Shown here: positions 21,601 through 33,067 of the stretch, piece after piece | How the letters are laid out: every line of letters begins with the position of its first letter | Position numbering within the stretch: position 1 is the first letter of the stretch | Origin: Flavivirga jejuensis | Lineage (GTDB): Bacteria > Bacteroidota > Bacteroidia > Flavobacteriales > Flavobacteriaceae | NCBI RefSeq assembly: GCF_030540765.1 | Contig: NZ_JAUOEL010000002.1 | Location: 1-64,000 of the forward strand | Length of the DNA: 64,000 nucleotides | Direction of reading: 5' to 3' | The notes under the pieces: model-generated | What the model was told of the DNA's origin: nothing | Database searches by the model: none | What the model saw: the letters and a program-made list of their open reading frames with translations, nothing else | Translations under genes and position numbers: made by a program

Positions 21601-24600
21601 TTTCTTTTGACATCTGTCATAACAATCCGTTATCAATTCAGATAACTCCTCCTCCGAAACTGCAAATTGAAAATCATGCACAGTTATTTCTCCCTGTGAT
21701 GCTCTATATTCCTGTTTCCAATTATTTTTTTCTTTTTTATACTGAAACCTAAGTGCATCATGATATTGAATCAATGCTTGTACAGCAGCTAATAAATGAG
21801 AATCCTCAACAGACTTATCAATAGTTAGAAATAACGATTGATTAAAGTGTTCCTTAGCTACATAGATATCTTCAAAATACCATGTTTGAATCGGCAATAA
21901 ATCACATATACCTTCTAATACTCCTTGTTCCCCTTCTATTTGACCCTTTTCAAGAGTTACCACCTCAGACAATTCTTCTATCGTCTGATATTCAAACACA
22001 TCCTTTGGTTGTAGCAGATATCCTAAACGTTTCATTCTACTAACCACCTGAATCGTTATAATAGAGTCTCCCCCAAGTTCAAAGAAATTATCATGAATGC
22101 CAATTTGTATTACAGATAATAATTGTTTCCAAATTCCAACTAAATGTTTCTGTTTCTCATTCTTTGGAGAAACATATTCCTTTGTCGTTAATTGGGACAT
22201 CTCTGGGTCTGGAAGAGCATTTCTATCTGTTTTACCATTTTTTGTTAAAGGCATCTCATCTAATACAACCCATAATTTTGGAATCATATAATCTGCTAAT
22301 TCCAATGCTAATTGTTGTTGTATCTCCTCTTTTTCTAAAATAACATCTTCCTTAACAATATAACCAACTAGACGTTTATTGGTTGTTATATCTTGTTTTG
22401 CAAGAACACAGCAATTTATAATCCCTGTAACCGAAGAAAGCACATTCTCTATTTCCCCTAACTCGACTCTATACCCTCTTATCTTTACCTGGTCATCTTT
22501 TCGACCAACAAATTCTAAATTTCCATCTGGCAACCAACGAACAAGATCTCCTGTTCTATACATCTGGGCACCTTTTACAAAAGGATTAGGTATAAATTTT
22601 TCTCTCGTTAACGCCTCTTCATTCAAGTATCCTTTTGCCAAACCATCTCCCCCTACACATAATTCACCAATAATTCCAATAGGTTGCAAAGATGTTAAAG
22701 TCTCGTCAAATACATACGCTTGACTATTATTAATAGGCTTACCAATAGGCACATCCTTTTCTTCTATATCTGTAATCGTATATGTTGTAGAAAATGTCGT
22801 GTTTTCTGTAGGCCCGTATCCATTAATAATCACAATGTTTGGATATTCACGAAATATTTTATTTGTATACTTAAAAAGGACTTTGTCTCCTCCTACTAAA
22901 AGATTACTAATATTATCGAAAACAGTACCATCTTCTTCTGCTACCTGATGAAACCAAGAAGCCGTCATCCATAACGTATTTACGTTATTTTTTTGTATCG
23001 TTGACTTTAGATATGTTGTATTAAGTAGTTTGTATGTATCTGTTATAATAAGTTTTCCTCCGTTTAGTAAAGTTCCCCAAAACTCTATTGTTGTAGCATC
23101 AAAAGATATAGAACCTGTAGATAACCAAACTGTATCTGTATTTAAGGAAACATAATCGCATGATTTTGATAAGCGTACAATACTTTTATGTGTTATCATC
23201 ACACCTTTTGGATTTCCTGTCGATCCAGAAGTATACAACACATATGCTAAACTTTCTGAAGCATATATTGGTGCCGAAAAAATAGCACTACACGTCTCTT
23301 TTATCGTTTTAAAGTTTTCTATGATAGTTGTATTTATAGTAAGTTTACAGTTCGAATCTTTCGCTATGTAATGTTTTCTTGCTTCTGGATACTTCGGATC
23401 TATAGGGACGTATACTGCTCCTATTTTTAAAATAGCCAGCATAGAAACAATCAACCATTCTGTTCGATCAAGGGTAATTCCTATAAAATCCCCAGAAACA
23501 ACATCACAACTGTTTAATAGATAATTAGCCAATTGATTGGACACTTCATCTAACTTTTTATAGGATAAATTATATTGATCCCCAATAACAGCTATCGCAT
23601 TAGGAGTACTCATAGCTTGTTCTATGAACAAGCTTCCAACAGTCTTTTCTTTTGGATACGCTACGATTGTATTATTAAACTCGTGCAATACTTGTTGAGT
23701 TTCTGTTCCAGATAACATCGATAATGCAGTAATAAACTGATCCCTGTTTTCAATCACACTATGTAATAAATTCTCATAATGTAAAACCATTCGCTGCATC
23801 GTTTCCTCACGAAATCGATTCGTATCATACTCTAAGATCATCGATAATCCATCACCTTTCTCATCCACAATACAAGTAATATCATATTTACATGTTGCAT
23901 TCGCTATCTGGTAAGGAACACAATCTAACCCTCCCAAATTCATTTTTTTTAAGTCAAAAGACTCCTGCAATGCAAATATCACCTGATAAATAGGAGAAAT
24001 TCCTGTTTCCCTTCGAGGTGCAACTCGTTTTACAACTTCTTCAAAAGGAGCAGACTGATTTTTATAGGCGTCCAGACTAGTTTGTTTAATTTGATATAAT
24101 ACCTCCTTAAAAGTAGCCTTGCTATCCAATTCGTTTCTCATAGCAAGCATATTAACAAAATACCCTATTAGCTTTTCTAACTCATATTGATGCCTATTAG
24201 CTATTGGAGTACCTACGCAGATATCCGATTGTCCACAATACCTAAATAACAATACTTTAAACACTGATAATAGTGTCATAAAAAGAGTAACGCCTTCTTC
24301 TTTTGCTAGTTCTTTCAACGATGCTTTCAAAGTTTTATCCAGAGTAAAAACTAAGGTCTTTCCTTTTCTTTCAATAGGGTAAGGACTCGAAAAATCATAT
24401 GGTAAATTTAAGGGTAAAACTCCTCTTAATCTTTCTTCCCAGTAATCCAATATATTTGACAAAAACGTTCCTTTCAGATAGTTTTTTTGCCAAATAGCAT
24501 ATTCCGAATACTGAATCTGTAATGGGATAAGTTCAGGTTCATTACCTTTTGAATATGCATTATAAAGTCTAGTAAAATCATTTAATAAGATCGCTTCCGA

Positions 24601-27159
24601 AAATCCATCTGCCGCAATATGATGAATTACAAAAATAAGTATGCTCTCTTCTTTATTGATCTCAATAATGGCACATCTAAAACTAAAATCCTTAGAAAGA
24701 TTAAAAGGATTAAAAACAACTTCTTGTATCGTTTGATCAATACAAACAGGATCATGTTCGTTAAAACACCTTATTTTAAATAGTTTTTCATCTAATAATT
24801 TTTGAAACAAATTTCCATTTTCATCAGCAAACATTACTGTTTTAAACACTTCGTGTCTTGAAACCAATTGAGTCGCTACCTTTTCTAAAATATTTAGGTC
24901 TAATACTCCCGAAACTTTAATTGTCTTATAGACATGATATTCCTCACTTCCTCCTAGCTGATCAAGAAACCATAAACTTTTTTGTTGAAATGAAGCAGGA
25001 ATCTTATTCTTATATTGTTTTCTATTTATATGAGATAATGATAACTTTTCAACTTGGTTTCCTTCTTCCAATTCCAGTTCTTTCTCTACCGAGGAAATAC
25101 ACGCTCTTAATGTGGGAAACTCAAAAATAAGAGTAGGTGCAAAAGGACGATTTAAATATTCTGATAACATCCCTGATAACCTGACTCCAAATAAAGAATT
25201 AATCCCTAGTTCAGTAAATGATTTATCCAATGATACTTGATCTAAGGAAAGCTCTAATTGTTCGGCTATTATTTTTTTAAACCATTTTTCTACAGGTGTA
25301 TTGATTAATGAAACGGCTTTTTCTTCTGTAGCTTTATTACTTTTTTGAATCTTGTTGGCCTCATTACTATCCCACCGTTCCAATACTCCATCTACTGTAT
25401 TTTCTTTATAAAATGATGCCGTAGCAACACGCTGAATTTTACCACTTGATGTTTTTGGAATACGCCCTGGACTAACTAATACAATCCCGTAGACTAAAAG
25501 GTTATGTGTATAATAAACAGTATCACAGATATTTTTTACTATTATCGAAAAATCGTACTTTAGAATACTGGTTCGTTTAATTTCTTGTACGATCACCAAT
25601 TGTTGACTTCCCTTATGTGAGATACTCAAGGCTACTCCTGCATTATTTTGTAAATCCGAACTCGATTTTTGCACGGTTCTTTCTATATCCTGCGGAAAAT
25701 GATTCACTCCATTAATGATCATCATTTCTTTTAATCTTCCCGAAATATATAGATCATCATTATGTATAAATCCCATATCACCAGTACGTAAATACGGACC
25801 TTCTGTTTTTTTTCCTCCTTTAATATATGCTTGAAATACCTCTTTAGAAATAGCTTCCTTTTGCCAATAACCTTTTGCTACACTGGCGCCACTCACCCAA
25901 ACTTCTCCTATTTTATTTTCATCGCAACGTTTTTTGGTATCTGGATCAACAATTTTAACCGTTAACCCTTCTATTACAGGGCCATTGCCCATTATCCGAT
26001 GTACTTCATTAGTCTCAATAGATTTCTTAGCAATCTTAACCTCTTTATCGCTAAATGCTTTCTTGTCTAACCCTAGAATTACAGGAGCTGTATGAAACAA
26101 GCAACCACTTACTACTAAAGTAGCTTCAGCCAAACCGTACCCTGGAAATAGCGCTTCTTCCCTAAGTCCATAATCTCTATAACGTGCAATAAACTTTTCA
26201 AATGTTTCAGGACGAATCGGTTCTGATCCATTAATTGCTACTCTCCAGCTACTTAAATCTATTCCTTCTAGATCATCTTTTTGAATTTGATTTACACATA
26301 GATCATATGCAAAATTGGGTCCACAACTAATTGTTCCTTTATAATTAGAGAATGCTTGTAACCATCTGATTGGTTTTTGTACAAATGCGGTTGGAGGCAT
26401 CATAACAAGCTCAAAACCAACATAAAATGCTTGAATAATATTACCTATCAACCCCATATCATGATATATAGGCAACCATGATATCCCTACAGAATCAGGA
26501 GTGTTTTTAAAACACTTTTTAAATAATTCACTATTGTCAATCACATTCGCATGGTCTATAATAACTCCTTTAGGGTTTCCTGTTGACCCTGAAGTATATT
26601 GCAAAAAGGCAACAGTTTCTGGAATTATATCGGGGAAATCTTTTAGGATTTTCTGTTCTAACTTATCTGTCTCTAACCATTTTATTTCAGAAAAAACTTC
26701 TTTACTAGCCCATTTCTTATTCTTAATATAAACCACTTCCTCGGTCAAAACTAGCATGGCATTACAATCTTCCACTATTTTTTCAAGCCTGCCTATTCTC
26801 CGTTTTCCTTGTGGAGGAAATGCTGGTACAGCAATAACTCCCGCTAGTAAACATCCAAAAAATGCATCCATAAAATCTAAACCCGAAGGGTATAATAGTA
26901 AAACGCGATTTCCTGGCTTTACATATTCTAAAATATGAGAAGCAATAATGGTTGCTCTGTCATATAATTCTAAATAAGTACGGGAATCTGTTTCCTCTTC
27001 TCCATTTTCTAGAAATCTATAAAGGATTTTGTTTGGAGTATGTGTTACATGATGTTCTAATATCTTTACTAATGTTTTATCTTCAAATATCTCTTTTGAA
27101 ACAGATAGGTTTGTTCGTAACATATTGCGATTAGGTTGTTTTAGTTTCTTTAAAGTCAA
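6607..27159 (-). CDS. Lipopeptide NRPS, first subunit: FAAL-ACP and five modules with two epimerases (6850 aa)
   Basis: This giant synthetase starts an acylated peptide. Approximate residues: fatty acyl-AMP ligase 1-610 (YTSGSTGNPKG, WLPIYHDMGLIG); ACP 625-695 (ELGINSL); C1 715-1155 (HHIAADG); A1 1165-1645; PCP1 1655-1735 (GGDSI); E1 1750-2200 (HHLVVDGVSW); C2, DCL type, 2220-2670; A2 2690-3155; PCP2 3170-3240; C3 3255-3695; A3 3700-4205; PCP3 4220-4290; C4 4310-4745; A4 4755-5230; PCP4 5245-5320; C5 5330-5770; A5 5785-6275; PCP5 6290-6355 (GGDSI); E2 6370-6825. Specificity residues aligned to GrsA by eye are A1 DAIWLGGTFK (Val/Ile type), A2 DAWTIAAICK (Phe, identical to GrsA), A3 DFWNIGMVHK (Thr), A4 DASTVAAICK (aromatic, probably Tyr) and A5 DPSLIGEVWK (not recognised). 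Both epimerase modules carry the GGDS-type PCP usual for E partners. In E2 the first His of the HHxxxDG motif is Asn (NHLIIDGVSW); the second His remains, so it is probably active. The acidic C-terminal tail (TTSDSEEIFKI) could pair with the next subunit's docking domain. Confidence 0.97.
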   Translation of the reverse strand: MTLKKLKQPNRNMLRTNLSVSKEIFEDKTLVKILEHHVTHTPNKILYRFLENGEEETDSRTYLELYDRATIIASHILEYVKPGNRVLLLYPSGLDFMDAFFGCLLAGVIAVPAFPPQGKRRIGRLEKIVEDCNAMLVLTEEVVYIKNKKWASKEVFSEIKWLETDKLEQKILKDFPDIIPETVAFLQYTSGSTGNPKGVIIDHANVIDNSELFKKCFKNTPDSVGISWLPIYHDMGLIGNIIQAFYVGFELVMMPPTAFVQKPIRWLQAFSNYKGTISCGPNFAYDLCVNQIQKDDLEGIDLSSWRVAINGSEPIRPETFEKFIARYRDYGLREEALFPGYGLAEATLVVSGCLFHTAPVILGLDKKAFSDKEVKIAKKSIETNEVHRIMGNGPVIEGLTVKIVDPDTKKRCDENKIGEVWVSGASVAKGYWQKEAISKEVFQAYIKGGKKTEGPYLRTGDMGFIHNDDLYISGRLKEMMIINGVNHFPQDIERTVQKSSSDLQNNAGVALSISHKGSQQLVIVQEIKRTSILKYDFSIIVKNICDTVYYTHNLLVYGIVLVSPGRIPKTSSGKIQRVATASFYKENTVDGVLERWDSNEANKIQKSNKATEEKAVSLINTPVEKWFKKIIAEQLELSLDQVSLDKSFTELGINSLFGVRLSGMLSEYLNRPFAPTLIFEFPTLRACISSVEKELELEEGNQVEKLSLSHINRKQYKNKIPASFQQKSLWFLDQLGGSEEYHVYKTIKVSGVLDLNILEKVATQLVSRHEVFKTVMFADENGNLFQKLLDEKLFKIRCFNEHDPVCIDQTIQEVVFNPFNLSKDFSFRCAIIEINKEESILIFVIHHIAADGFSEAILLNDFTRLYNAYSKGNEPELIPLQIQYSEYAIWQKNYLKGTFLSNILDYWEERLRGVLPLNLPYDFSSPYPIERKGKTLVFTLDKTLKASLKELAKEEGVTLFMTLLSVFKVLLFRYCGQSDICVGTPIANRHQYELEKLIGYFVNMLAMRNELDSKATFKEVLYQIKQTSLDAYKNQSAPFEEVVKRVAPRRETGISPIYQVIFALQESFDLKKMNLGGLDCVPYQIANATCKYDITCIVDEKGDGLSMILEYDTNRFREETMQRMVLHYENLLHSVIENRDQFITALSMLSGTETQQVLHEFNNTIVAYPKEKTVGSLFIEQAMSTPNAIAVIGDQYNLSYKKLDEVSNQLANYLLNSCDVVSGDFIGITLDRTEWLIVSMLAILKIGAVYVPIDPKYPEARKHYIAKDSNCKLTINTTIIENFKTIKETCSAIFSAPIYASESLAYVLYTSGSTGNPKGVMITHKSIVRLSKSCDYVSLNTDTVWLSTGSISFDATTIEFWGTLLNGGKLIITDTYKLLNTTYLKSTIQKNNVNTLWMTASWFHQVAEEDGTVFDNISNLLVGGDKVLFKYTNKIFREYPNIVIINGYGPTENTTFSTTYTITDIEEKDVPIGKPINNSQAYVFDETLTSLQPIGIIGELCVGGDGLAKGYLNEEALTREKFIPNPFVKGAQMYRTGDLVRWLPDGNLEFVGRKDDQVKIRGYRVELGEIENVLSSVTGIINCCVLAKQDITTNKRLVGYIVKEDVILEKEEIQQQLALELADYMIPKLWVVLDEMPLTKNGKTDRNALPDPEMSQLTTKEYVSPKNEKQKHLVGIWKQLLSVIQIGIHDNFFELGGDSIITIQVVSRMKRLGYLLQPKDVFEYQTIEELSEVVTLEKGQIEGEQGVLEGICDLLPIQTWYFEDIYVAKEHFNQSLFLTIDKSVEDSHLLAAVQALIQYHDALRFQYKKEKNNWKQEYRASQGEITVHDFQFAVSEEELSELITDCYDRCQKKLSDTEDGVFKVILIKTPITQEKNRVLLVAHHLVVDGVSWRILMEDLGVLLDALHQGIKMDLGVKGSSFRQWVEVMKQYANSDVLLTQLPYWQKVISDFKPLNPDSTSIISQQKDVDTYHSVLGTKHTVSLLKEVHNCYGTEIEDILLSCLGLTISKWTKRDTVIIGLEGHGRENLSRTIDTTNTVGWFTSLYPVSLSVPQEISLGNLIKSVKEQLRNIPDKGMGYGALRYLNHSEQIREKLIGKHWDIVFNYLGQLDTIFKSSNKFGQAGDRIGEAEVGRNTPFHNSLVINSSITAGALVISWEYSRLEFNQSSIVELAAAYQQTLEMLIEHCCDDKEKEMTPSDFGLEKELTYTEFDAFTSILKNKKIAIQSIYKLSPLQEGMLFHGLYDTIAGSYIVQLGLHFKKEVKVDIVRSSWNYLIKNHSILRTGFFYKELSVPVQLVESEVQIPITELDVSSYTDEEQEKMIASFLKEDREVGFEFDTFPLIRITLIKTAPTSQRMIFTNHHILLDGWSMSVLIQEFIEAYTSLLKGEILPDRKEDLYEDYIQYITNKNTSQEEAFWKTYIKELSTPTVLPFTKGIVSGNKSNGNYEESILSIDTVLTKAILSYAKSNHLTANTIFQGVWAMLLSRYTSEKEVAYGVTVSGRPTDLEDSEQRVGLYINTIPLCTSLNADDEILEWLIALQLNHTACREYQYTSLATIQRLSQIKGDLFDTVFVFENYPISEALKKADDLLEIDTIQVKEQTNYPLAIAVTLDKKMFNMKFIHNTSIINESIVKQIQGHFIEVLKQLVQLPVSTTFRDISIVTSKEKRILLEDYNDTIIKEDEEENVVSLFKKQVEKKPNATAIVHEGKVLTYQELDEQSNQLANYLITECGVEEENFVGVMLGRSEWLIISFLAILKSGGTYIPIDPNYPEDRIKYIENDSQCKITIEDTLLLDFRNKKEEYSKNCDSLSIYPQMLAYIIYTSGSTGQPKGVMITHRGIVNTIMSQVRLFNQETTIHCLQFANQSFDASIWEILIALFSGSSLFIIGESIKKDIRLFVEFIKANRITWATLPPAYLKLLNIEELEGIDTLITAGEEAPILKAKEFAEVGNYSNAYGPTETSICATVFNGEIHDNISIGKPIANTRIYILTEDLHLQPQGIIGELCVAGIGVAKGYLNKESLTKEKFVTDPFSSGWPMYRTGDLARWLPDGNIEFVGRKDDQVKIRGHRIELGEIECALAKMATVNSCCVIAKSDEQGTKYLVGYLVIEGKFDRKKIQEELKNTLPGYMVPRIWSVLNTMPITSNGKIDKTKLPNEVDITRSLLEYVAPRNKIEEQLVQIWELLLTVKKVGIHDDFFDLGGHSLLATRLVSIIRQEIKVEISIRDVFSYTVLSELALFISANSLKELMPPIIPIKDKEHIPLSFSQERLWFLDQMKGSTAYHMPLVFRFEGAIDKQVVEACFKEIVSRHEILRTVIETEEGIGYQKVISEREWSMEHLVLETHELEKELAEFTARPFDLQKDYMLRMCLYEVGVDSWVLVGVFHHIASDGWSNTVFIREFITIYENYSKGKPWGLAPLPLQYADYAVWERNYIQGEVLEKQLAYWEQQLNSVTPLSLPYDYVRPSEQSTEGASMRFSLDNKITTDLKEICKEEGVTLFMLLLSVFKILLYRYSHQDDICVGTPIANRIQKESEDLIGFFANTLALRTDFSKELTFREVLQQVKETTLVAYNHQQLPFEKVVEHVTTNRDTSMTPLFQVLFVLQNMSGQKELKTNDFEISSYDYDSTTSKFDITLMAMEEADGIFLGVEYCVDLFKEQTIRGMLLHYNELLHCMVDNIDQKVSVTSLLTPTEEHQLLHVFNKVSIAYPKDKNLLDLISYQVMLAPDAIAVTLDKEQVSYRELDNRSNQLAHYLIERGVSSNDLVGICIERSVEMIIGILGILKSGGAYVPIDPEYPEDRITYIIEDADLQLIVTTTFGSRKLKNKEHDLVLLDKDKEHIAKEVSTLVKRKIKITDTAYVIYTSGSTGNPKGVLISHENVVRLFKNDAALFDFNKNDVWTLFHSFCFDFSVWEIFGALLFGGRLVIVPKMITKDTIAYSKLLKKEQVTVLNQTPKSFYNLQEEVLQELSDVVLRYVIFGGEALNPLKLQQWKKELPNCKLINMYGITETTVHVTYKEITGADVLKTTSTIGNAIPTLSCYILDDALQLVPIGVVGEICVSGAGLSKGYLNRKTLTNEKFVSNPFEPGERLYRSGDIGRWLADGTIEYIGRKDDQVKIRGYRIELGEIESVLSEMEAIRNCCVLAKTDSEGIAFLLGYVVVNNDFEKEEIKENLRKRLPEYMIPELWVFLDEMPLTSNGKINKKKLPNPDNARRSSKEYVAADNPTQKQLVAIWEEILEVDKIGIYDNFFELGGHSLLATRLVSLIRKRMKTELAIRDIFSRPTIIELGKYLINASKSIMPVIKSRSSNEKLPLSFSQERLWFIDQLEGSLNYHMPVSLYLEGALDIVALEGALKMIVSRHEILRTVINEEDGIGYQVVRATENWSLKKVTVEDHELLENQISEFIATPFDLSNDYMLRMCLFQLESESFELVGVLHHIASDGWSNSILVNELKTIYKALKRNQEIVLLPLPIQYADYAIWQRTYIDGIVLEQQLQYWQNQLQGIIPLMLPFDYLRPSLQSKQGANFSFLLDEELSTALNDFAKEEGVTLFMVLLSVFKVLLYRYSGQEDICVGTPIANRTQKETENLIGFFVNTLVLRSDLRGNPSFRMLLEKVKATTLEAYDYQLAPFEKVVDRVIESRDMSMSPLFQVLFVLQNTPEMGEIQLEDVSVYKDEVEINSSNYDLTLLVEEKGSRIVLDITYCSDLFTERTIKRIANHYKKLVSACIARPEVGIANASMLSETEEEDLLIASNNIQTVSSQETLVSLFAKQLTKTPNEVAVVFGEQEWTFFELDNISNKIANYLVSEYGITTEDFVGVKLERSNWLIGILLAIQKLGAVYIPIDPEYPKERIAYIEKDSNCSIVIDTEFLKKYDQISNHIHTNIPKIEVKKHMLSYVIYTSGSTGKPKGVMIEHEGIVNTIVSQITAFHILEKEACLQFANQSFDASISEIFVSLLAGAKLVIIEEAYKSDKDYFVDFIKKHSISWATIPPAFLEIIAIDDLKGIKTLVTAGEQAPLAKVKEFSKYGIYCNAYGPTETSICATIFEGEIDTNVPIGRPIHNTKVYVLSDELELQPQGIIGELCVAGKGLARGYLNQEELTAKAFVENPFVEGERMYRTGDLVRMQFNGNIEFIGRKDDQVKIRGYRIELGEIAHVIAAETYIDSCSVIVKKDKKGNSFLVSYVVATRGIEVLDIKEQLASKLPDYMIPQFWVFLDEMPITSNGKVDKKALPDFNHNEDITSLYTEARNETEEQLVAIWQELLEREKVGVIDDFFDLGGHSLLATRMVSIIRKEMLKEVTIRDIFTYPTIARLSFYISTQNKQEHFPRIVPQQREGQLPLSFSQERLWFIDQLEGTLDYNMPVVLKLTGVLDIQFLEDALKEIVQRHEILRTVIKTEDGKGYQEVRAADTWSLDTVEALVLENQEQLIHEFVSKPFDLSQDFMLRMRLYEVDENEYILAGAFHHIATDGWSNSILIKELITLYDGYKNGKINPLTPLSIQYADYAIWQRNYIEGTVLEKQLAYWNQKLRGVSSLVLPLDFPRPAIQSTKGNSFTFSLDTELSNSLDIICKEEEVTLFMLLLAAFKILLYKYSGQKDICVGSPIANRTREESEALIGFFVNTLALRSDLSGNPSISDILQQVKENTLEAYEHQQAPFEKVVDSVVEVRDRSMSPLFQVMFVLQNTPQEAINLEGLTITNMPYEVDNSKYDITLAAIENESGILLNMTYCTDLFREDTIRQMAEHYKMLLYHLIENTKEYIGNVTMITASEKHQLLTVFNETKLDYPHQTTVLDLFYKQVENTPDAIAVVFQDTALTYIELDKKTNQLARYLQKQGVKENSLVGICIGRSLEMIVGILGILKAKGTYVPIDPDYPEDRIAYILEDAEICFVISSAIHIELWKDKKAIELTLLDTDWNKIEAESSDRIPQFLSPEYLAYIIYTSGSTGNPKGVMVTHANLTGLAFSKIAYYGSVEGMLLLPSFVFDPSVSVIFGTLLTGGRLIIPSKEAIHDASQMKKLLQQNVDLLLCVSSYYNFLLNEEVLNNTQLRGVIVGGEKLNKKVVEKHYELYRSVAMYNEYGPTECTVWASVSKVQENEVIDIGCPVSNTQIYILDEQQQLVPRGVVGELCISGVGLSNGYLNREELTKEKFVPNPFVAGKRMYRTGDLARWLPDGRIAFVGRTDDQVKIRGYRIELGEIETALLKVADIESCCVIVKEDAQETKQLVGYVVVEGEFDMKAVKQELKLSLPEYMIPVLWMPLEIMPLTSNGKIDKKALPDLDMSLSLKESYVAPRNELEKQIAIVWQELLGVSEIGVHDNFFELGGDSIITIQVVSRMSRIGYAIQPRDLFEYQTISGLTSYIASGIGEIIGEQGFLTGQSDLLPIQQWYFDEIYSEGAHFNQAVLLAISKDINEASLRKTLEVLTTHHDALRFMYEQKGAQWIQTYGDKVSVVEVVDWNTVVETEEAFCETSITVICEHYQKRLSSHKEQLFTVVLIKTPCHIHDDRLFLLANHLIIDGVSWRILLDDFGRILKKTETTQETEVDLGKKGSSYREWVQALKAYTNKNSVLAQQSYWSSMSMDYMPIPTDLKGEVSNRNDVANYKNTLDTENTTALLKEIHQSYGTEIEDILISCLVMTIHGWSGKNKVMIGLEGHGREDISDEVDVSNTIGWFTNVYPVSLIDESKGALGNLIKSIKEQLRKIPDKGLGYGALLNLHPSEEVRKRISKIQWDILFNYLGQLDNLTTNESWFDIALESCGTPIGDSIPFTNKLEINSSVTGGQLQLEWSYSEKEYKPETIKKLANQYLSNIKTIINHCKNQKNRDFTPSDYGLEKEIEITELDAFFEGETTSDSEEIFKI

Positions 27160-27364
27160 AAAAAAATCATAAAGACCAGAAATGATCTTTATATACTGTA
27201 TTACTAGTAATTATTGTAGAAATTTAGTTATCAAATAATTGGTCACCCACATGCATCAAAAAGAGAATATCCTTATTAAAAGACTCCTCTTTTAATTTCT
27301 AATACATTCTATTCGAAGAATTATTTGACTATTCTGTAAGTATATATTTTTCAATTAAATAAGT

Positions 27365-27673
27365 CTAATTTAACTTATGTACTTTTATATAAATTATAAG
27401 CTTTAATAAATGCATGCTCCAAGACCTCCAGTTATAACTATAACTAGGTTTATCTCTTTTGATTTGGGCGTCTTTTTTAATATTGTTACTTCTAAACTTA
27501 ATCTTTGCACCATAAGTGTCTTTCCATACGTCGGGAACAGTAAAATATCCCCTTTCTATCTTCCCATTATTTGGGTAAAAAGATGTTACTTTTTCAAACT
27601 GTAAATTAGGTTGTTGAGCAAAAGAGCAAATACTAAATACGGTTAAAAATAGAAATGTAAATTTATTCATCAT
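27365..27673 (-). pseudogene. Remnant of a secreted alpha/beta hydrolase (N-terminal fragment, frameshifted)
   Basis: The open frame codes for 102 residues, with a clear signal peptide (MMNKFTFLFLTVFSICSFAQ) followed by ERGYFTVPDVW. That stretch resembles the N-terminal part of secreted tripeptidyl/prolyl aminopeptidase-like alpha/beta hydrolases, where a GxxxVPxxW segment precedes the oxyanion-hole motif. After residue ~75 the reading frame becomes unlike a protein. The next frame over the same bases (about 27405-27450) reads LVIVITGGLGA, resembling the hydrolase GGxG oxyanion motif, and then stops. I infer a full hydrolase broken by a frameshift and a 3' deletion. It lies between the NRPS and the PPTase, so it may once have been a tailoring or release enzyme of the cluster. 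The alternative is a genuine short secreted protein. Confidence 0.45.
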
Positions 27674-27690
27674 TATTCTTATAAATAGTG

Positions 27691-28332
27691 TTAAAAATCG
27701 AGTTTATTTATTTTTATTTCAATGGTATCTATCTTTCTATTTAAAGCGACGTGACAACTATAATCATCCTTTATTGTTATTTCTTTTAAAAAGAAATTTT
27801 CAAAACCTACTGTTGTTTTTTTATTTCGAATTTCAAAAGATTTTAAGGGAATTGTAAATCCTTTTCCGTTAGTTTTAATAACTGCTTCTTTCTGCGACCA
27901 ATGGTAAAAAAATGAACGTATTTTATCTTTTGAATTGTTAACTGATTCCCATTCATTCTTGGTCATTTGAGATTTAAAACCTGTAATCTTAATAGGCTTA
28001 ATTTTTTCAATATCAATACCTATACTCCCTAAACGGGTTAAAGCACAAATAACTATTTTTCCTGAATGTGAAATATTAAAACTCATATCAATACTATCAA
28101 AATATGGTTTATTATAGAAGGTATATTTTAAATCGAAATCGTCAAAATTATAATTCATTTGTTCCATACCTTTAACCAGTAAAACTCTTCCTAATAAAGA
28201 TAATTGAGCATCTTGCCATCGTCTATATCTTAGTACTTTTTTTTGAAATTCAGTAGAGAACTTTGGTAAATATTTGTTGATTAAATCTTTATGATTATCC
28301 TCATTTATTAGCGTGTAAAAAATATAAATCAA
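27691..28332 (-). CDS. Sfp-type 4'-phosphopantetheinyl transferase
   Basis: The 213-residue protein has the three Sfp-family core motifs in order. FNISHSG is the substrate/CoA-binding motif near residue 85. GIDIE follows near 104, with the Mg2+-binding Asp and Glu. FYHWSQKEAVIKTNGKG is near 142, corresponding to the usual WxxKEAxxKxxGxG. Length is typical of Sfp/AcpT-like enzymes. The family transfers phosphopantetheine from CoA to the conserved Ser of carrier domains, so this protein is expected to activate the ACP and PCP domains of the adjacent synthetases. It lies in the same direction as the NRPS genes, between the type II thioesterase and the hydrolase remnant, with gaps of about 195 and 18 bp. 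No gene symbol is assigned because several Sfp-like paralogues are usual. Confidence 0.93.
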   Translation of the reverse strand: MIYIFYTLINEDNHKDLINKYLPKFSTEFQKKVLRYRRWQDAQLSLLGRVLLVKGMEQMNYNFDDFDLKYTFYNKPYFDSIDMSFNISHSGKIVICALTRLGSIGIDIEKIKPIKITGFKSQMTKNEWESVNNSKDKIRSFFYHWSQKEAVIKTNGKGFTIPLKSFEIRNKKTTVGFENFFLKEITIKDDYSCHVALNRKIDTIEIKINKLDF

Positions 28333-28527
28333 TTAAAAAGCATTAAAAGTTAAAATTAATTTCTATTATTTTTTGATTTTTAAAATCCAACGCTTTGTAT
28401 GTATTCCTTTTGATTTTACATTTAGAATTATAAATAGCGTAAGGTTATGTGAGAAACTATTTTTTAATGTAAAATTCTTATCCTATATTTTACTAAAGAT
28501 TAGTAGATCCCAAATTACATACTTGAT

Positions 28528-29238
28528 TTATATTAAGCTTTTATTTTCATGATAGCTTGTTCGGAATATCTCAACTAATTCCTTAACGTTATTGTATATA
28601 AAGAAATGATTTCCTTTTAACACGTAAGACTTAAAATTGGACTTCGTATGTTTTTTCCAATTATTTATCTTATTTATTTCTTTTTCCTCATCTCCCATTA
28701 TAGCTATTATAGGTGATTCTATAATAATATCATTAATAAGAAAATCTCCTTCTAATATCTTAAAATCTGCACGTAGAATAGGTAATACAAAATCTAATAG
28801 CTCTTCGCTTTCTAATAATTCTTTAGGAAGTCCTCCTAATTCTTTAAGCATGGTTATAAAATCATTTCTATTCAAAGATGAGCGATTTTTTTCTCTTTTT
28901 ATACCTGGCCCAGCATTACCACTTACAATCACACATTGTGAAAATTTATTATCCTTTTCCAGCATGTCTTCAATTCCTAATGCTAAAGCAGCTCCTAAAC
29001 TGTGTCCATAGATTATAAAATCTTCTCCGTTTAGTCGGTTGGAGATTTGTTTGTACATATCCTGTATTGCATCTACATAGGAAGTTATTAATTTTTCTTT
29101 AATTCTTTTACCTCTGCCTGGAAGTTCTATAGAAATCATTTCAAAATCAACAGGAAAAGGTTCTAAAAAATCGAAAGAATATATACTACCTCCTGCAAAA
29201 TGTAATAAAAATAGTTGCTTTTTCTTCATAAAAATCAT
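28528..29238 (-). CDS. Type II thioesterase (NRPS proofreading hydrolase)
   Basis: This 236-residue alpha/beta hydrolase matches the GrsT/SrfD type II thioesterase family. The N-terminal segment is LLHFAGGSIYSF (usual LFCFPYAGGS). ELPGRGKR follows, then the nucleophile elbow GHSLGAALA (Ser near residue 94), a lid segment with LGGLPKELLES, and a C-terminal GNHFF that carries the likely catalytic His. The family removes wrongly primed or stalled acyl groups from carrier domains; it is a stand-alone protein, not the release domain. It is the first biosynthetic gene after the antiterminator and runs in the same direction as the NRPS genes. An in-frame ATG at 29229 (MKKKQLF) is an equally plausible start. 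Confidence 0.92.
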   Translation of the reverse strand: MIFMKKKQLFLLHFAGGSIYSFDFLEPFPVDFEMISIELPGRGKRIKEKLITSYVDAIQDMYKQISNRLNGEDFIIYGHSLGAALALGIEDMLEKDNKFSQCVIVSGNAGPGIKREKNRSSLNRNDFITMLKELGGLPKELLESEELLDFVLPILRADFKILEGDFLINDIIIESPIIAIMGDEEKEINKINNWKKHTKSNFKSYVLKGNHFFIYNNVKELVEIFRTSYHENKSLI

Positions 29239-29482
29239 TAATTAGTTAATAAAGAATTTCTTGAAATTAACTATCCCTGTCTTTGCTGGCAGGCTGGATC
29301 GAAGCAAAGTCATAATCGTATTTCGCTAGTTTTATACCCAATCAAGTTGCTCCACAGGTTTTGACCTAAAAAAGTCAAAAACCAAAATGCTGTATTTAGT
29401 TTCCCATTTTTACTGAAACAAGTTCAGCACAAACACGGAGTGATAATTTCAACGAAAACCCTGTCTTTGCAAGCAGACTAGG

Positions 29483-29711
29483 GGCCAATGTCATTAAGTT
29501 AAGACTAAAATGTCAGTCTGAGCGCAGTCGAAGACCTTATAAACCTTAGTTTTTAAAAGCATTTCGACTGCACTACCAATGACGTAATCTTCATTTAATT
29601 GATTTTGAATTAATTACAAATAAACATCATCTACCATACTTTGTAATTTTTTTCCAAGGGCTCAATGTGAAAAAACAGAACAAATCCCCCTTAACTTAAT
29701 GACATTGAGCC
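29483..29711. repeat. MITE/REP-like element with ~21-bp terminal inverted repeats
   Basis: The arms GGCCAATGTCATTAAGTTAAG (29483-29503) and its near reverse complement (29690-29711, ending TGACATTGAGCC) enclose about 229 bp without a gene. A second imperfect palindrome lies inside: GCAGTCGAAGAC near 29523-29535 against GCATTTCGACTGC near 29568-29581. Similar interspersed repeats are common between flavobacterial genes. A further direct repeat, CCCTGTCTTTGC, occurs at 29275 and 29459. The region 29239-29741 otherwise holds no gene. Because it lies between the antiterminator and the thioesterase, the paired arms would also be present in the operon RNA. Confidence 0.6.
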
Positions 29712-29741
29712 AGAGGTAGCACCTAAGGAAATTCTTTTCGA

Positions 29742-30305
29742 TTAAAATATTTGACTATAACTTTCAATGTTAGAGCTATTGATGTCAACAAACACTATTT
29801 GATTAATCTCTTTTAATAGGATACCAAATCTAGTTTTGGTATTCCGTTTTGCAAGTATTCCTTCATATCCCGCTAATGGGCCGCTTATAATACGAACATT
29901 CTCACCTTCTTTAAAATTTGGTTCAACTGATATATTTCTATTTAAATTCAGCATTTTTTTAATCCCTTTTATGTTTTCAAAATCAACTTTTGAAGGCTTC
30001 CCTCCACAATGTAAAAAAGTCACAACCTTAGGTATTTGACAAATTTTACTTAAATAACGTTCTTCGGTATTCACAAAAATATAACTCGGAAAAAGCACCT
30101 CCTCAATCATTTTTTTTTGGCGATTCTTCCAGGTTTTTAAACTTTTCTTCACAGGAAGAAAAACTTCATAGTCTTGAAAAGACAACTCTTGTTTAACAAT
30201 TTTTTCTGCACGTGGTGCTGTATAAAATACATACCAATTCTTATTCGGTTTTAATTCTAATACAGTCTCCCCTTTTTTACAATAACTATCAATATTATCG
30301 CACAT
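29742..30305 (-). CDS. NusG-paralogue antiterminator (UpxY/RfaH/LoaP type) heading the NRPS operon
   Basis: The 187-residue protein has an N-terminal NGN domain (about residues 20-115: WYVFYTAPRAEKIVKQEL, then VLFPSYIFV) and a C-terminal KOW domain (about 130-180: FKEGENVRIISGPLAGYEGIL). This is the layout of NusG, but it stands next to a secondary-metabolite cluster, not rpl/secE genes. Specialised paralogues such as UpxY (Bacteroides capsules), RfaH, TaA (myxovirescin) and LoaP (Bacillus polyketides) let RNA polymerase read through long operons. The gene runs in the same direction as, and directly before, the thioesterase, PPTase and giant NRPS genes. It is therefore the likely operon-specific elongation factor. 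The first eight residues (MCDNIDSY) recur as decayed copies upstream. A family-level call is secure; the target is inferred from position. Confidence 0.9.
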   Translation of the reverse strand: MCDNIDSYCKKGETVLELKPNKNWYVFYTAPRAEKIVKQELSFQDYEVFLPVKKSLKTWKNRQKKMIEEVLFPSYIFVNTEERYLSKICQIPKVVTFLHCGGKPSKVDFENIKGIKKMLNLNRNISVEPNFKEGENVRIISGPLAGYEGILAKRNTKTRFGILLKEINQIVFVDINSSNIESYSQIF

Positions 30306-30331
30306 ATCAATATAATGTTTAAGATTTGGAA

Positions 30332-30381
30332 ATTAAATAAAGCTACGCTTGGTCAATTAGCAACTTTGCATTTGACTAAAA
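30332..30381 (-). promoter_or_regulatory. Leader element copy 1 (directly upstream of the antiterminator gene)
   Basis: The 50-bp core ends 27 nt before the antiterminator ATG. On the plus strand it contains AGCTACGCTTGGTCAATTAG and then CAACTTTGCATTTGAC. On the coding strand it contains an imperfect dyad (GTCAA...TTGAC enclosing GCA...TGC) and then TAGCTTTA, one base off the Bacteroidota -7 box TAnnTTTG. The only upstream TTG is about 15 nt away, shorter than usual. Promoter, operator and RNA-element readings all remain possible. Confidence 0.6.
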
Positions 30382-30561
30382 TTTTAAAATTCTATAAGTG
30401 ATGAATATCTTAGAGAATGATTAAAAAAGGATTTAATTAAACTCTATATTTAAAAAGACATACTAATTCTTACACTTTTATAAACGCAGAAAAATGATTT
30501 AATATAAAAGGTCACATTAACTAATTGAATACTCATAATAATATAGTTTTTAAGATTGAAA

Positions 30562-30611
30562 ATTAAATAAAGCTACGCTTGGTCAATTAGCAACTTTGTA
30601 TTTGACTAAAA
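30562..30611 (-). repeat. Leader element copy 2
   Basis: This copy matches copy 1 except for one C-to-T change in the CAACTTTGC segment. It lies 230 bp upstream of copy 1. Its downstream flank (minus direction) lacks the antiterminator-start fragment seen after copies 3 and 4. Confidence 0.85.
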
Positions 30612-30783
30612 TTTTAGAAGTAATGAGTGTCTTTGAGAATGCTTTTTATGAGGTTTTTATTAAAAAATAATCATGTACGAATATCAAACATTATTTCATA
30701 TAAAGAAAGACAATTCCTGTTAATTAACATAAAGTTCACATTGATTAATTGAATGCCATAATATCTTATAATAATAAAAGAAA

Positions 30784-30870
30784 AAGTTAAAAAATATTCT
30801 TGCTCGTATTCGAATTTAATTATAATAGAATCCCACTCATTTTTTAATAATTATCAAAATTATAGCACAT
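30784..30870 (-). pseudogene. Decayed 5' fragment of the antiterminator gene (behind leader copy 3)
   Basis: Read on the minus strand from an ATG at 30870, about 85 nt align with the start of the antiterminator gene. The peptide is MCYNFDNY followed by a stop, against MCDNIDSYCKK in the gene. The similarity continues past the stop through stretches matching the ETVLELKPNKNWYVF codons. Several substitutions and small indels make it non-coding beyond eight residues. It could still be translated as a tiny leader peptide. Confidence 0.6.
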
Positions 30871-30895
30871 AAATATATGATGTTTAAGATTGAAA

Positions 30896-30945
30896 ATTAA
30901 ATAAAGCTACGCTTGGTCAATTAGCAACTTTGCATTTGACTAAAA
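30896..30945 (-). repeat. Leader element copy 3
   Basis: The core is identical to copy 4 over 50 bp. Downstream (minus direction) it leads into a decayed copy of the antiterminator start, just as copy 1 leads into the real gene. Confidence 0.85.
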
Positions 30946-31123
30946 CTTTAAAATTCTAGTAGTAATGAGTGTCTTTTGAGAATGCTTTTTTATGAGTTTT
31001 TTTGTTAAAAAACCATATACAAATATCAAACATTATTTTTCATAAAGAAAGATAATTCTTATTAATTAACATAAAGTTCACATTCATTAATTGAATGTCA
31101 CAATACCTTATAATAAAAAAAGA

Positions 31124-31210
31124 AAAATTAAAAATATTCCTACTCGTATTCGAATTTAACTATAATAGAATCCTACTAATTTTTTAATAATTATCAAAAT
31201 TATTGCACAT
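31124..31210 (-). pseudogene. Decayed 5' fragment of the antiterminator gene (behind leader copy 4)
   Basis: The ATG at 31210 opens MCNNFDNY and a stop. The next ~60 nt resemble both the copy-3 fragment and the real gene start. The eight-codon frame is kept in both fragments. That may mean selection for a leader peptide, or simply recent duplication of one decayed unit. Confidence 0.55.
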
Positions 31211-31235
31211 ATATATATGATGTTTAAGATTGAAA

Positions 31236-31285
31236 ATTAAATAAAGCTACGCTTGGTCAATTAGCAACTTTGCATTTGACTAAAA
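31236..31285 (-). repeat. Leader element copy 4
   Basis: The core is identical to copy 3, and the flanks match copy 3 closely over more than 300 bp. It too is followed by a decayed antiterminator start. Confidence 0.85.
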
Positions 31286-31445
31286 CTTTAAAATTTTAGT
31301 AGTAATGAGTGTCTTATAAAGGTTTTATTAAACCTTCCATTTAAAATATATACAAATATCAAATATTATTTTTATAAAGAAAAATAATTCTTATTAATTA
31401 ACGTAAAATTTATATAGACTAATTAAACGCTATAATATCTTGAAG

Positions 31446-31495
31446 ATTAAATAAAGCTACGCTTGGTCAATTAGCAACTTTGCGTTTGACTAAAA
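31446..31495 (-). repeat. Leader element copy 5 (outermost)
   Basis: The core differs from copy 3 by one base in the CATTTGAC segment (CGTTTGAC). Its flanks are the most diverged, and the antiterminator-start segment is missing, so it is probably the oldest or a deleted unit. Confidence 0.8.
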
Positions 31496-31695
31496 TTTCA
31501 AAAATTCTATAAGCTATGTGTATCTTAAAGAATGCTTTTATGGGAGTTTTTTAATCCTCTATTTAAAATATGTACGAATATTATCATTTTTAATCAAAAA
31601 AAGAAGACAATTCTTATAAAAAAATCATAAAATTAACATTATATAATTTATCGTCCATAATATTTTATAATTCATAAAATAAAAGGCTAAATAAT

Positions 31696-31854
31696 ATGAA
31701 TTTATTACCTGAAGTTCCGAAGGATTTAGAGAAAGACTATACAGAGTAAATTGGAGATAATCCCAAAGCCAGCTCTGCTCATAGCAGACACTATTTAGAA
31801 ACATATCTTCATAGGGCATATTCTATTGTAGGAAGAACAAATATCATCTGTTAA
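31696..31854 (+). pseudogene. Small unidentified ORF broken by an in-frame stop
   Basis: An ATG at 31696 gives MNLLPEVPKDLEKDYTE and then TAA. The same frame continues without further stops for 34 codons (IGDNPKASSAHSRHYLETYL... ending TNIIC) to a stop at 31852. The second half is protein-like, with balanced composition and an amphipathic HYLETYLHRAY stretch. I do not recognise the family. It may be the remnant of a short gene or the start of one lost by deletion. An antisense frame over the same bases looks spurious. Confidence 0.3.
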
Positions 31855-32007
31855 TAAATCTCCCAAAATTCTCTTAAAACCTGTCTTGTTCTGAAATATG
31901 TATACACAAAGCCAATAGGTTGATTTTAAGTTTGTAAAATAATTTTAAAAGATATCCAACTAAAAACAACACGAGTAAATATCTTAATGTCAGATAATTA
32001 AAAAACA

Positions 32008-32027
32008 GGTACGTAATTCGGTGCGTA
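32008..32027. repeat. 20-bp dyad, copy 1 (left flank of the urea-island block)
   Basis: The sequence GGTACGTAATTCGGTGCGTA matches 46277-46296 at 18 of 20 positions. The two differences are reciprocal (TACGTA-ATTCGG-TGCGTA here, TGCGTA-ATTCGG-TACGTA there). Each copy is a dyad of 6-bp arms around ATTCGG, as for a recombinase or repressor site. Confidence 0.6.
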
Positions 32028-32143
32028 TACCAATAACCAAACAGAATAACACATTGATTATAAGTATTTTATTAGATATCAGATAGTCCCCCTTTCTCCA
32101 CTGAAAAAATTGTAATTAGACACTTTAAAAGTCAAAACCCTTT

Positions 32144-32172
32144 AAACACTACGTTTAGAGTTTTTTTGTTTT
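32144..32172. terminator. Terminator-like hairpin
   Basis: AAACCCTTTAAAC is followed by a short loop, GTTTAGAGTTT and a T-rich tail. It resembles the stronger terminator at 34456-34496, and the surrounding bases are similar too (TAGTyCCyCTTTCTCC upstream of both). Confidence 0.4.
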
Positions 32173-32286
32173 TGGTATATGTTCAAAATACACATTATAT
32201 AGATCAAATATAATTTTAGGGGGCAAGTCATAATTACGCATAAATTTTGATGAGTCTATATAGGAAAAAAGAAATATCTCTGACTC

Positions 32287-32323
32287 CCCTAAACTGGGAT
32301 CAATCCCAAAAGTTGTGTTTAGG
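32287..32323. other. Nested hairpin, possibly a structured RNA or protein site
   Basis: The outer arms CCTAAAC (32288-32294) and GTTTAGG (32317-32323) enclose an inner GGGATCAATCCC stem-loop (32296-32307). No T-run follows, so a terminator is unlikely. Function is unknown. Confidence 0.35.
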
Positions 32324-32540
32324 CAAAAATGTTCTACTCTTTAGCTTCTTGAAATCAGATTCTCTTTTAAAAATACAGCCTTTTTATTTAATTAAGACAT
32401 AACAACCTATAAGTATTTACAACATTTCAATAATCTTTAGTCCCTTTTTTTACATTTTAGTGTAAAATGACCTGTTTGTGACATAGATTGACCAATTTAT
32501 ATCTATTAAATATACTTAATTTACATCTTAAAATTTTTAT

Positions 32541-32585
32541 TATGGGAGTATTTAATTCCTTGTTTAAGAAAAAAAATTATGAATA
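32541..32585 (+). pseudogene. Truncated start of a TPR-gene paralogue (MGVFNSLF...)
   Basis: An ATG at 32541 codes for MGVFNSLFKKKNYE, then a stop that overlaps the lipoprotein ATG. The intact TPR gene 620 bp downstream begins MGLFNSLFGKKK, with a similar AT-rich sequence before its ATG. I infer that a second copy of that gene start was joined to the lipoprotein gene by deletion or recombination. It may now act as a translated upstream ORF that couples to the lipoprotein start. Confidence 0.5.
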
Positions 32586-33067
32586 AATTTAAGATCCTTG
32601 CCTTTACCTTGTTGGTAATCCTTTCTTGTAAAAGTGTCAAATTAAAAAAAAGTTTCCATAACAATTCTGGAAACTATGTATCTGAACATTATCAAAATCG
32701 CGAATCGGGATATGATTGGGTGTCGGTTAATGTTAGCCAGAATACCCCAGAAAACATGAAAATTTCTATTCGATCAAGAGCTGATAAAAAAAGACCTACT
32801 TGTACTTTTGATGCAATTGCTGAAAGAATAAACGATTCAACTTTTCAAACCATTGTAAAACAAAAAACCATTCTTTTTAAATTTAAAGAAAACAATATTT
32901 CAATTTCTACAAAAGAATTTGATAATAGATTTCTATTAATGTATTTCTGTAGTGGTGGTGCTAGTTTAATGGGAGATTATAAAAAAATATCTAGTGAATT
33001 AGACACTACACAAATTGACAAAAAACCTTTTTCTAACATGATAAAAGACGGAAAAATTAACCGATAA
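32579..33067 (+). CDS. Small hypothetical lipoprotein
   Basis: The 162-residue protein has a lipoprotein signal peptide with lipobox LVILSC (Cys17), so it is probably anchored in the cell envelope. The mature part is polar and beta-rich, with alternating hydrophobic residues such as SVNVSQNTPENMKISIRS, and near residue 127 a short FCSGGAS motif. No family is recognised. The start ATG overlaps the stop of a 14-residue upstream ORF. It shares a strand and a loose cluster with the TPR gene and the secreted-protein gene downstream. Confidence 0.75.
   Translation: MNKFKILAFTLLVILSCKSVKLKKSFHNNSGNYVSEHYQNRESGYDWVSVNVSQNTPENMKISIRSRADKKRPTCTFDAIAERINDSTFQTIVKQKTILFKFKENNISISTKEFDNRFLLMYFCSGGASLMGDYKKISSELDTTQIDKKPFSNMIKDGKINR

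Follow-up and report, generated by a model that had tools for sequence, protein, structure and literature searches.

The window, which is the whole 64,000-nucleotide stretch of Flavivirga jejuensis DNA analysed here, begins at a contig end, and the NRPS operon is therefore cut. A long run of genes, with ORFs on the minus strand from position 30305 to 1, starts with a NusG paralogue (NusG^SP) and continues with a thioesterase, a phosphopantetheinyl transferase, an ORF of 102 aa that matches no Pfam family and, finally, the NRPS genes (Table 1). Condensation, AMP-binding and PP-binding domains were present in the two NRPS pieces scanned (2-3000 and 22000-27159), and the entire run is presumed to form an operon. 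The 187-aa product of the first gene passes the NCBIfam model NF033644 (antiterm_UpxY) with 126.3 bits against a cutoff of 100, and stays under the cutoffs for both RfaH (TIGR01955; 96.1 vs 144.5) and LoaP (NF033641; 76 vs 125). Other NusG proteins within the genus are 29-31% identical to it, no close orthologue was found in the family and phylum samples (best identity ≤39%), and a search of viral contigs returned no relatives.

Table 1. Genes, putative loading sites and gene-start remnants at the locus (window coordinates)
Feature	Coordinates	Strand	Basis
NRPS genes: one ORF of 6850 aa, plus another truncated at the contig end	1..27159	-	ORFs and domains
4'-phosphopantetheinyl transferase	27691..28332	-	Pfam ACPS, 55.3 bits
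Second gene of the run: thioesterase, assigned to type II from its position	28528..29238	-	Pfam Thioesterase, 87.6 bits
UpxY-family NusG paralogue (NusG^SP), 187 aa	29742..30305	-	Pfam NusG, 62.1 bits; NCBIfam NF033644 antiterm_UpxY, 126.3 bits
Putative loading-site copy 1	30332..30381	-	Core match and 50-bp block
Putative loading-site copy 2	30562..30611	-	Core match and 50-bp block
Decayed gene-start copy behind copy 3 (MCYNFDNY-stop)	30786..30870	-	Local alignment
Putative loading-site copy 3	30896..30945	-	Core match and 50-bp block
Decayed gene-start copy behind copy 4 (MCNNFDNY-stop)	31126..31210	-	Local alignment
Putative loading-site copy 4	31236..31285	-	Core match and 50-bp block
Putative loading-site copy 5, farthest upstream	31446..31495	-	Core match and 50-bp block

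A conserved five-copy array upstream of the NusG paralogue

The first-pass annotation had described a 50-bp element present five times on one strand ahead of the NusG-like gene, at intervals of 210-340 bp, and this arrangement was recovered: all five copies lie on the minus strand, with start-to-start intervals of 230, 334, 340 and 210. The 39-bp core was matched five times at 0-1 mismatch and not once in 100 shuffles. With the five copies in ungapped register, 48 of the 50 columns of the block (offsets -13..+36) are invariant, and the ten pairs of copies show between 0 and 2 differences over the 50 positions. Alignment of the units also bore out the proposal of a near-invariant core between diverged flanks—in ungapped 10-base steps, identity averages 1.00 within the core and drops to 0.33-0.55 at greater distance, the outer values being depressed by indels. 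The cores span 30332-31495, within the 30306-31500 given in the first-pass annotation, and weaker similarity extends to about 31562. Every copy carries the heptamer GCGNAGC on the sense strand, the nearest being the GCGTAGC of copy 1 at 30342-30348 (-), 43 nt ahead of the ATG of the NusG paralogue.

The 94% identity of units 3 and 4 across 200 nt marks part of the duplication as recent. Copies 1 and 3 agree at 50/50 positions and their adjoining 105 nt are 73% identical, which argues for selection; by our own arithmetic, with sites treated as independent, a run of 50 matches at the 73% rate has a chance near 1.5e-7. The constancy of the core had been attributed to either selection or gene conversion, and selection is the better reading, with conversion a possible one. 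Gene-start remnants proposed behind copies 3 and 4 are well supported, as local alignment with the first 90 nt of the gene scored 74 (copy 3) and 72 (copy 4) against shuffle maxima of 48 and 45 (500 shuffles each). Behind copy 2 the signal is marginal (score 34, reached by 8/500 shuffles), and behind copy 5 no gene-start signal was detected (score 25, reached by 261/500). Repeated duplication of leader and gene start, as originally suggested, hence applies to units 1, 3 and 4, is marginal for copy 2 and leaves no gene-start trace at copy 5. We read the array as the product of such duplication, with the copies kept by selection.

In this genome and the relatives searched, the core was found only in this array. 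A 27-mer from it, allowing ≤3 mismatches, occurs in the 6.0 Mb genome only at the five array places, 98 relatives searched with a 71-nt query yielded nothing at E≤0.001, and plasmids were likewise without a match. Together, these searches lend no support to a dispersed repeat. The exact core 19-mer was found in two records of genome_contigs, a Bacilli MAG and a Streptococcus, which we take as chance matches. In addition, Rfam gave no match up to E 1 on 27000-33000, and no intrinsic terminator was found.

Several other sequences in this genome deserve mention. A second NusG paralogue (L170, contig C33, 1536-11985) lies near opposite-strand PKS genes, with a related loading-site-like sequence, TGTAACAGAGGATAGTGAAGCTATAC, 39 nt before its ATG. 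A 21-nt sequence like TTATGGGAGT.TTTTAAT.CCT occurs at 31538-31558, upstream of the array, and at 32540-32560, before a plus-strand gene at 32579; the two are 86% alike and may reflect chance in AT-rich DNA. The spacer upstream of the array also contains a short plus-strand frame at 31698-31860 (MNLLPEVPKDLEKDYTE-stop, by eye), perhaps a gene remnant.

A strand-specific element at other NusG-paralogue loci

As no relative shares the window core, the leaders of other Bacteroidota NusG paralogues were examined. Besides the window, 122 loci were collected, of which 6 were not recovered by tblastn and 116 were counted (L036, L037, L047, L048 and L052-L169 less six); since close relatives are among them, the loci do not count as fully independent observations. 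The genus search contributed 4 paralogues, with 12 rows at about 1e-8 omitted as core-NusG-like, and every row of the family search was used. From the phylum search we used 29 loci; of 68 rows without a locus, 25 were fetched and 43 omitted (25 of them from one genus, g305). A script took the first ATG in each open frame as the start codon.

Comparing word counts between the sense and antisense strands of 62 leaders brought out TGGCGAAGCC-like words, whose contexts share one element: TGTGAYTGA, 3-6 nt, GCGNAGC and YATG. Complete GNA hairpins with a 4-bp stem occurred in just 4/62 leaders on the sense strand and in none on the antisense strand—too few for counting—and the shorter GCGNAGC was used instead. 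Within 500 nt upstream of the gene, GCGNAGC was present in 28/116 other leaders in sense and 2/116 in antisense orientation, compared with 4 sense and 10 antisense occurrences in a far control region (of 106) and a mean of 5.1 (maximum 12) in 300 runs of an order-1 simulation. The loop types were likewise skewed, with GAA at 20 v 1 and GGA at 6 v 0 (sense v antisense).

A two-block matrix trained on upstream sites only was then informative for the untrained downstream region, where it detected sites at 27/116 loci in sense and 1 in antisense orientation (threshold 14). Upstream, 29/116 loci carried matrix sites (28/116 v 0/116 at threshold 14 when each locus was left out in turn), rarely together with a downstream one. 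Counting either side of the gene, 55/116 loci had the element in sense and 2 in antisense orientation (threshold 14; training sites included), leaving 61/116 without it at this threshold. The upstream sites lie between -282 and -8 relative to the ATG.

Moreover, the pattern TGTGACTN{5,8}GCGNAGC occurred at 41 places in 299 family genomes, against 7 for the backwards control (counted from the table). For sixteen of these places, a listed NusG^SP gene lies ≤420 nt away, in every case on the strand of the pattern. A profile search of the 30 loci fetched for pattern places found a NusG-paralogue gene in 16, always on the motif strand and largely at the same loci, and paralogues below the search threshold were found near two further places (L189 and L197). 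The remaining 25 places, e.g., L179, L181 and L183, lie near no listed NusG^SP gene; possible explanations include trans targets of UpxY-like factors, sub-threshold paralogues and chance. In the phylum sample, the pattern was found in 141/390 genomes vs about 67 with the backwards control (counted from the table), and is less specific there than in the family; among the matches listed, all four bases occur at the N of GCGNAGC. An element of this kind associates strand-specifically with UpxY-family genes across the phylum. The first-pass annotation had asked whether the core itself lies upstream of other NusG paralogues: it does not at any locus examined, and a related element is found at the 55/116 loci above.

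At part of these 55 loci, TGTGAYT doubles as the 3' arm of an RNA hairpin whose 5' arm differs between loci, an arrangement compatible with a hairpin-stabilised pause. For RNA folds that end in this block, the mean z was -0.56, with 16 below -1 and 4 above 1 (of 55).

The window core, read as TG(C)TAATTGA, CCAA, GCGTAGC and TTTA, is likely a diverged version of the TGTGAYTGA-N3-6-GCGNAGC-YATG element. Its second half, AGCGTAGCTTTA, fits the element (cf. AGCGAAGCTTTA in L169 and AGCGAAGCTTTG in L119), and the chance of encountering GCGNAGC in 50 nt at this composition is 0.0011. Without an indel, the core scores 9.21 with the matrix, a value reached by 1/116 antisense leaders and 3/300 simulations. 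With one insertion allowed, the score rises to 17.43, which 0/116 antisense leaders and 0/300 simulations reach; this one-base insertion in the first half was assumed post hoc, and the TGTGAYTGA block fits only thus. At the RNA level, copy 1 alone has GUCAA/UUGAC as its minimum-energy fold; copies 2-5 favour other folds, and the z-scores of the five copies range from -1.59 to +1.08. As the core is invariant, it offers no covariation for an RNA hairpin.

Leaders with several sites are rare among the 116 other loci. There is one clear two-site case (L075), and two more pairs pass the matrix threshold, each with one doubtful member (L088 and L126); related loci generally have one element or none. 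When the 1500 nt preceding each of the 116 genes were scanned for repeats, an approach also sensitive to a private, diverged array, spaced 13-mers with at least 3 copies were found in 3/116 leaders (L058, L067 and L105; those of L058 about 630-1490 nt from the gene), besides short-period tandem repeats. In none of the three is the element the repeated unit, and none resembles the five-fold array. By eye, no two pattern places are <2 kb apart among the 41 family places and the phylum places in the matches listed. The literature we covered on UpxY together with RNA, pausing, hairpins, non-template DNA or NRPS, with the main Bacteroides papers falling outside this coverage, does not describe the element. 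The sole relevant paper found on tandem or multiple ops concerns a laboratory template carrying ops then the his pause (PMC2871177). The single unit would belong to the already known loading sites of NusG paralogues (ops/JUMPstart, Bacteroides UpxY sites), so the initial statement that no counterpart had been described is too broad for it; for the five-fold array, which is the striking feature here, we found none in the loci and literature searched.

The repeat scan yielded two side observations. Dispersed-looking repeats adjoin the NusG-paralogue genes of L055 and L067 (GTCATTGCGAGGAAACATTTGAC; CGACAAGCTCAGGAACCGG), and short-period tandem repeats of about 7, 8 or 15 nt lie within roughly 300 nt upstream of the start in L057, L095, L126, L136 and L163, reminiscent of slippage-prone phase-variation tracts.

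Five proposed tandem loading sites and alternative readings

On this basis, it is probable that each 50-bp core acts as a pause-and-loading site used by the NusG paralogue whose gene follows immediately downstream, with five such sites in tandem. From the sequence, we infer the following course of events. RNA polymerase transcribing the leader would be held at a consensus-type pause near AGCGTAGCTTT^A, perhaps aided by the RNA hairpin GUCAA...UUGAC, and the non-template strand exposed at the pause would fold into a GC-GTA-GC mini-hairpin. The UpxY-like protein could read this mini-hairpin and, once on the polymerase, keep it transcribing across the long NRPS operon. Five tandem sites would provide several loading chances before a very long operon, and the array would tie the operon to its own antiterminator, placing expression of the regulator under the same control. 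With no promoter established and no terminator found, this reading presumes transcription across the array. Among the roles listed in the first-pass annotation, an RNA leader signal loaded by the antiterminator comes closest to this reading, with the amendment that the predicted signal is a pause site with a DNA mini-hairpin, joined at some loci by an RNA hairpin, rather than RNA alone.

It is unlikely that the gene-proximal copy alone is functional, with the remaining four being leftovers of tandem duplication whose likeness core-core recombination maintains. Identical 50-bp tandem stretches could recombine, and the 94% identity of units 3 and 4 over 200 nt makes part of the duplication recent, but the 50/50 identity of copies 1 and 3 beside 73% flanks (chance near 1.5e-7) speaks against this account, as does the improbability of conversion tracts sharing their edges in all five copies. 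It is even less credible that the core serves as an operator, recognised in duplex form by a cluster regulator instead of being a transcribed signal; we regard this as very improbable. Short conserved sites repeated upstream of a gene are typical of operators, yet all five copies share a single orientation and the core resembles the strand-specific elements at other NusG^SP loci.

Multiple promoters, another of the roles originally proposed, also appear improbable. In that case, the regulator gene would be served by several promoters in a row, each provided by a core or by the sequence just behind it. Several features point this way: in units 1-4 an ATG lies 23-24 nt behind the 39-mer core, a sigma-70 scan across 29700-32700 returned 30 sites vs 21.6 (sd 4.1) in shuffles, and three minus-strand sigma-70 sites with TG before the second hexamer begin just behind cores 1, 3 and 4 (30321, 30886 and 31226). 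The Bacteroidota promoter consensus is TTG-N17-21-TANNTTTG, and the core holds TAGCTTTA, one base off this -7 box, with a TTG upstream; the TTG, however, is only 15 nt from the TAGCTTTA box. The invariant part of the element is the GNA hairpin rather than a promoter box, and core-like elements occur downstream of the NusG gene about as often as upstream (27 vs 29 of 116). None of the 10 consensus matches in the window is intergenic, so that this test of a promoter has little power, as have the consensus scans of this DNA in general.

Beyond the locus itself, we tentatively entertain a broader model, which we hold to be possible though short of an even chance. UpxY-class proteins across the phylum would be recruited by an RNA pause hairpin together with a GNA-loop DNA mini-hairpin of variable central base (A, G, T or C), and the window genome would have amplified a private version into a five-step array, leaving its NRPS operon heavily reliant on the operon's own antiterminator. 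If the loading-site interpretation is right, it would provide a sequence-level handle on UpxY-family loading outside Bacteroides, and the element, itself open to direct testing, may point to the target operons of each paralogue. The array would further represent a natural test of whether multiple loading sites raise antitermination, and a possible handle to switch on the NRPS operon.

Comparison with known systems

The proposed system shares its protein family (NF033644) with the Bacteroides UpxY leader sites, which likewise lie in a leader upstream of the regulator's own gene. UpxY of Bacteroides reportedly acts on a paused polymerase, read via non-template and upstream duplex DNA, with nascent-RNA hairpins helping. 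The window differs in its presumed target, an NRPS operon and not a capsule operon, in its five sites, and in the absence of any UpxZ match among the 8 window ORFs scanned with Pfam; a search of genomes for UpxZ (PF06603) was uninformative, with 0/395 genomes but also 0/14 controls. In the leaders that precede upxY, UpxY keeps transcription from terminating (PMC7819879). LoaP, acting at the dfn and mln leader hairpins of Bacillus velezensis, offers a different parallel: a NusG paralogue, giant antibiotic megasynthase operons and a leader-borne recruitment signal. LoaP binds a UNCG-type RNA hairpin (PMC12691694), unlike the constant part of the window element, which is a GNA-loop sequence presumably read as DNA; furthermore, the window protein falls under the LoaP cutoff, as noted above.

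The ops element of RfaH is GGCGGTAGCGTG. Aligned by eye, this sequence and GGCGAAGCCATG are both 12-mers that start with GG, end with TG and contain a GC-loop-GC hairpin; the GCGGTAGC of ops belongs to the GNNA class of loops and GCGNAGC to the GNA class. The window departs from ops in its three-base loop and in a 12-mer that ends in A, as well as in its five copies, its regulator encoded within the presumed target operon and its binding, which is predicted only. The likeness to the ops/JUMPstart system of Gammaproteobacteria nevertheless extends to a 12-mer with a GC-loop-GC mini-hairpin, the non-template strand, a NusG paralogue and long operons. RfaH reads a non-template-strand hairpin at ops (PMC5995543), and DNA mini-hairpins with GNA or GNNA loops are extraordinarily stable when at least two G-C pairs close the loop (PMC4686876). 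The proposed reading of the array would thereby link the ops of RfaH to these exceptionally stable GNA/GNNA DNA mini-hairpins.
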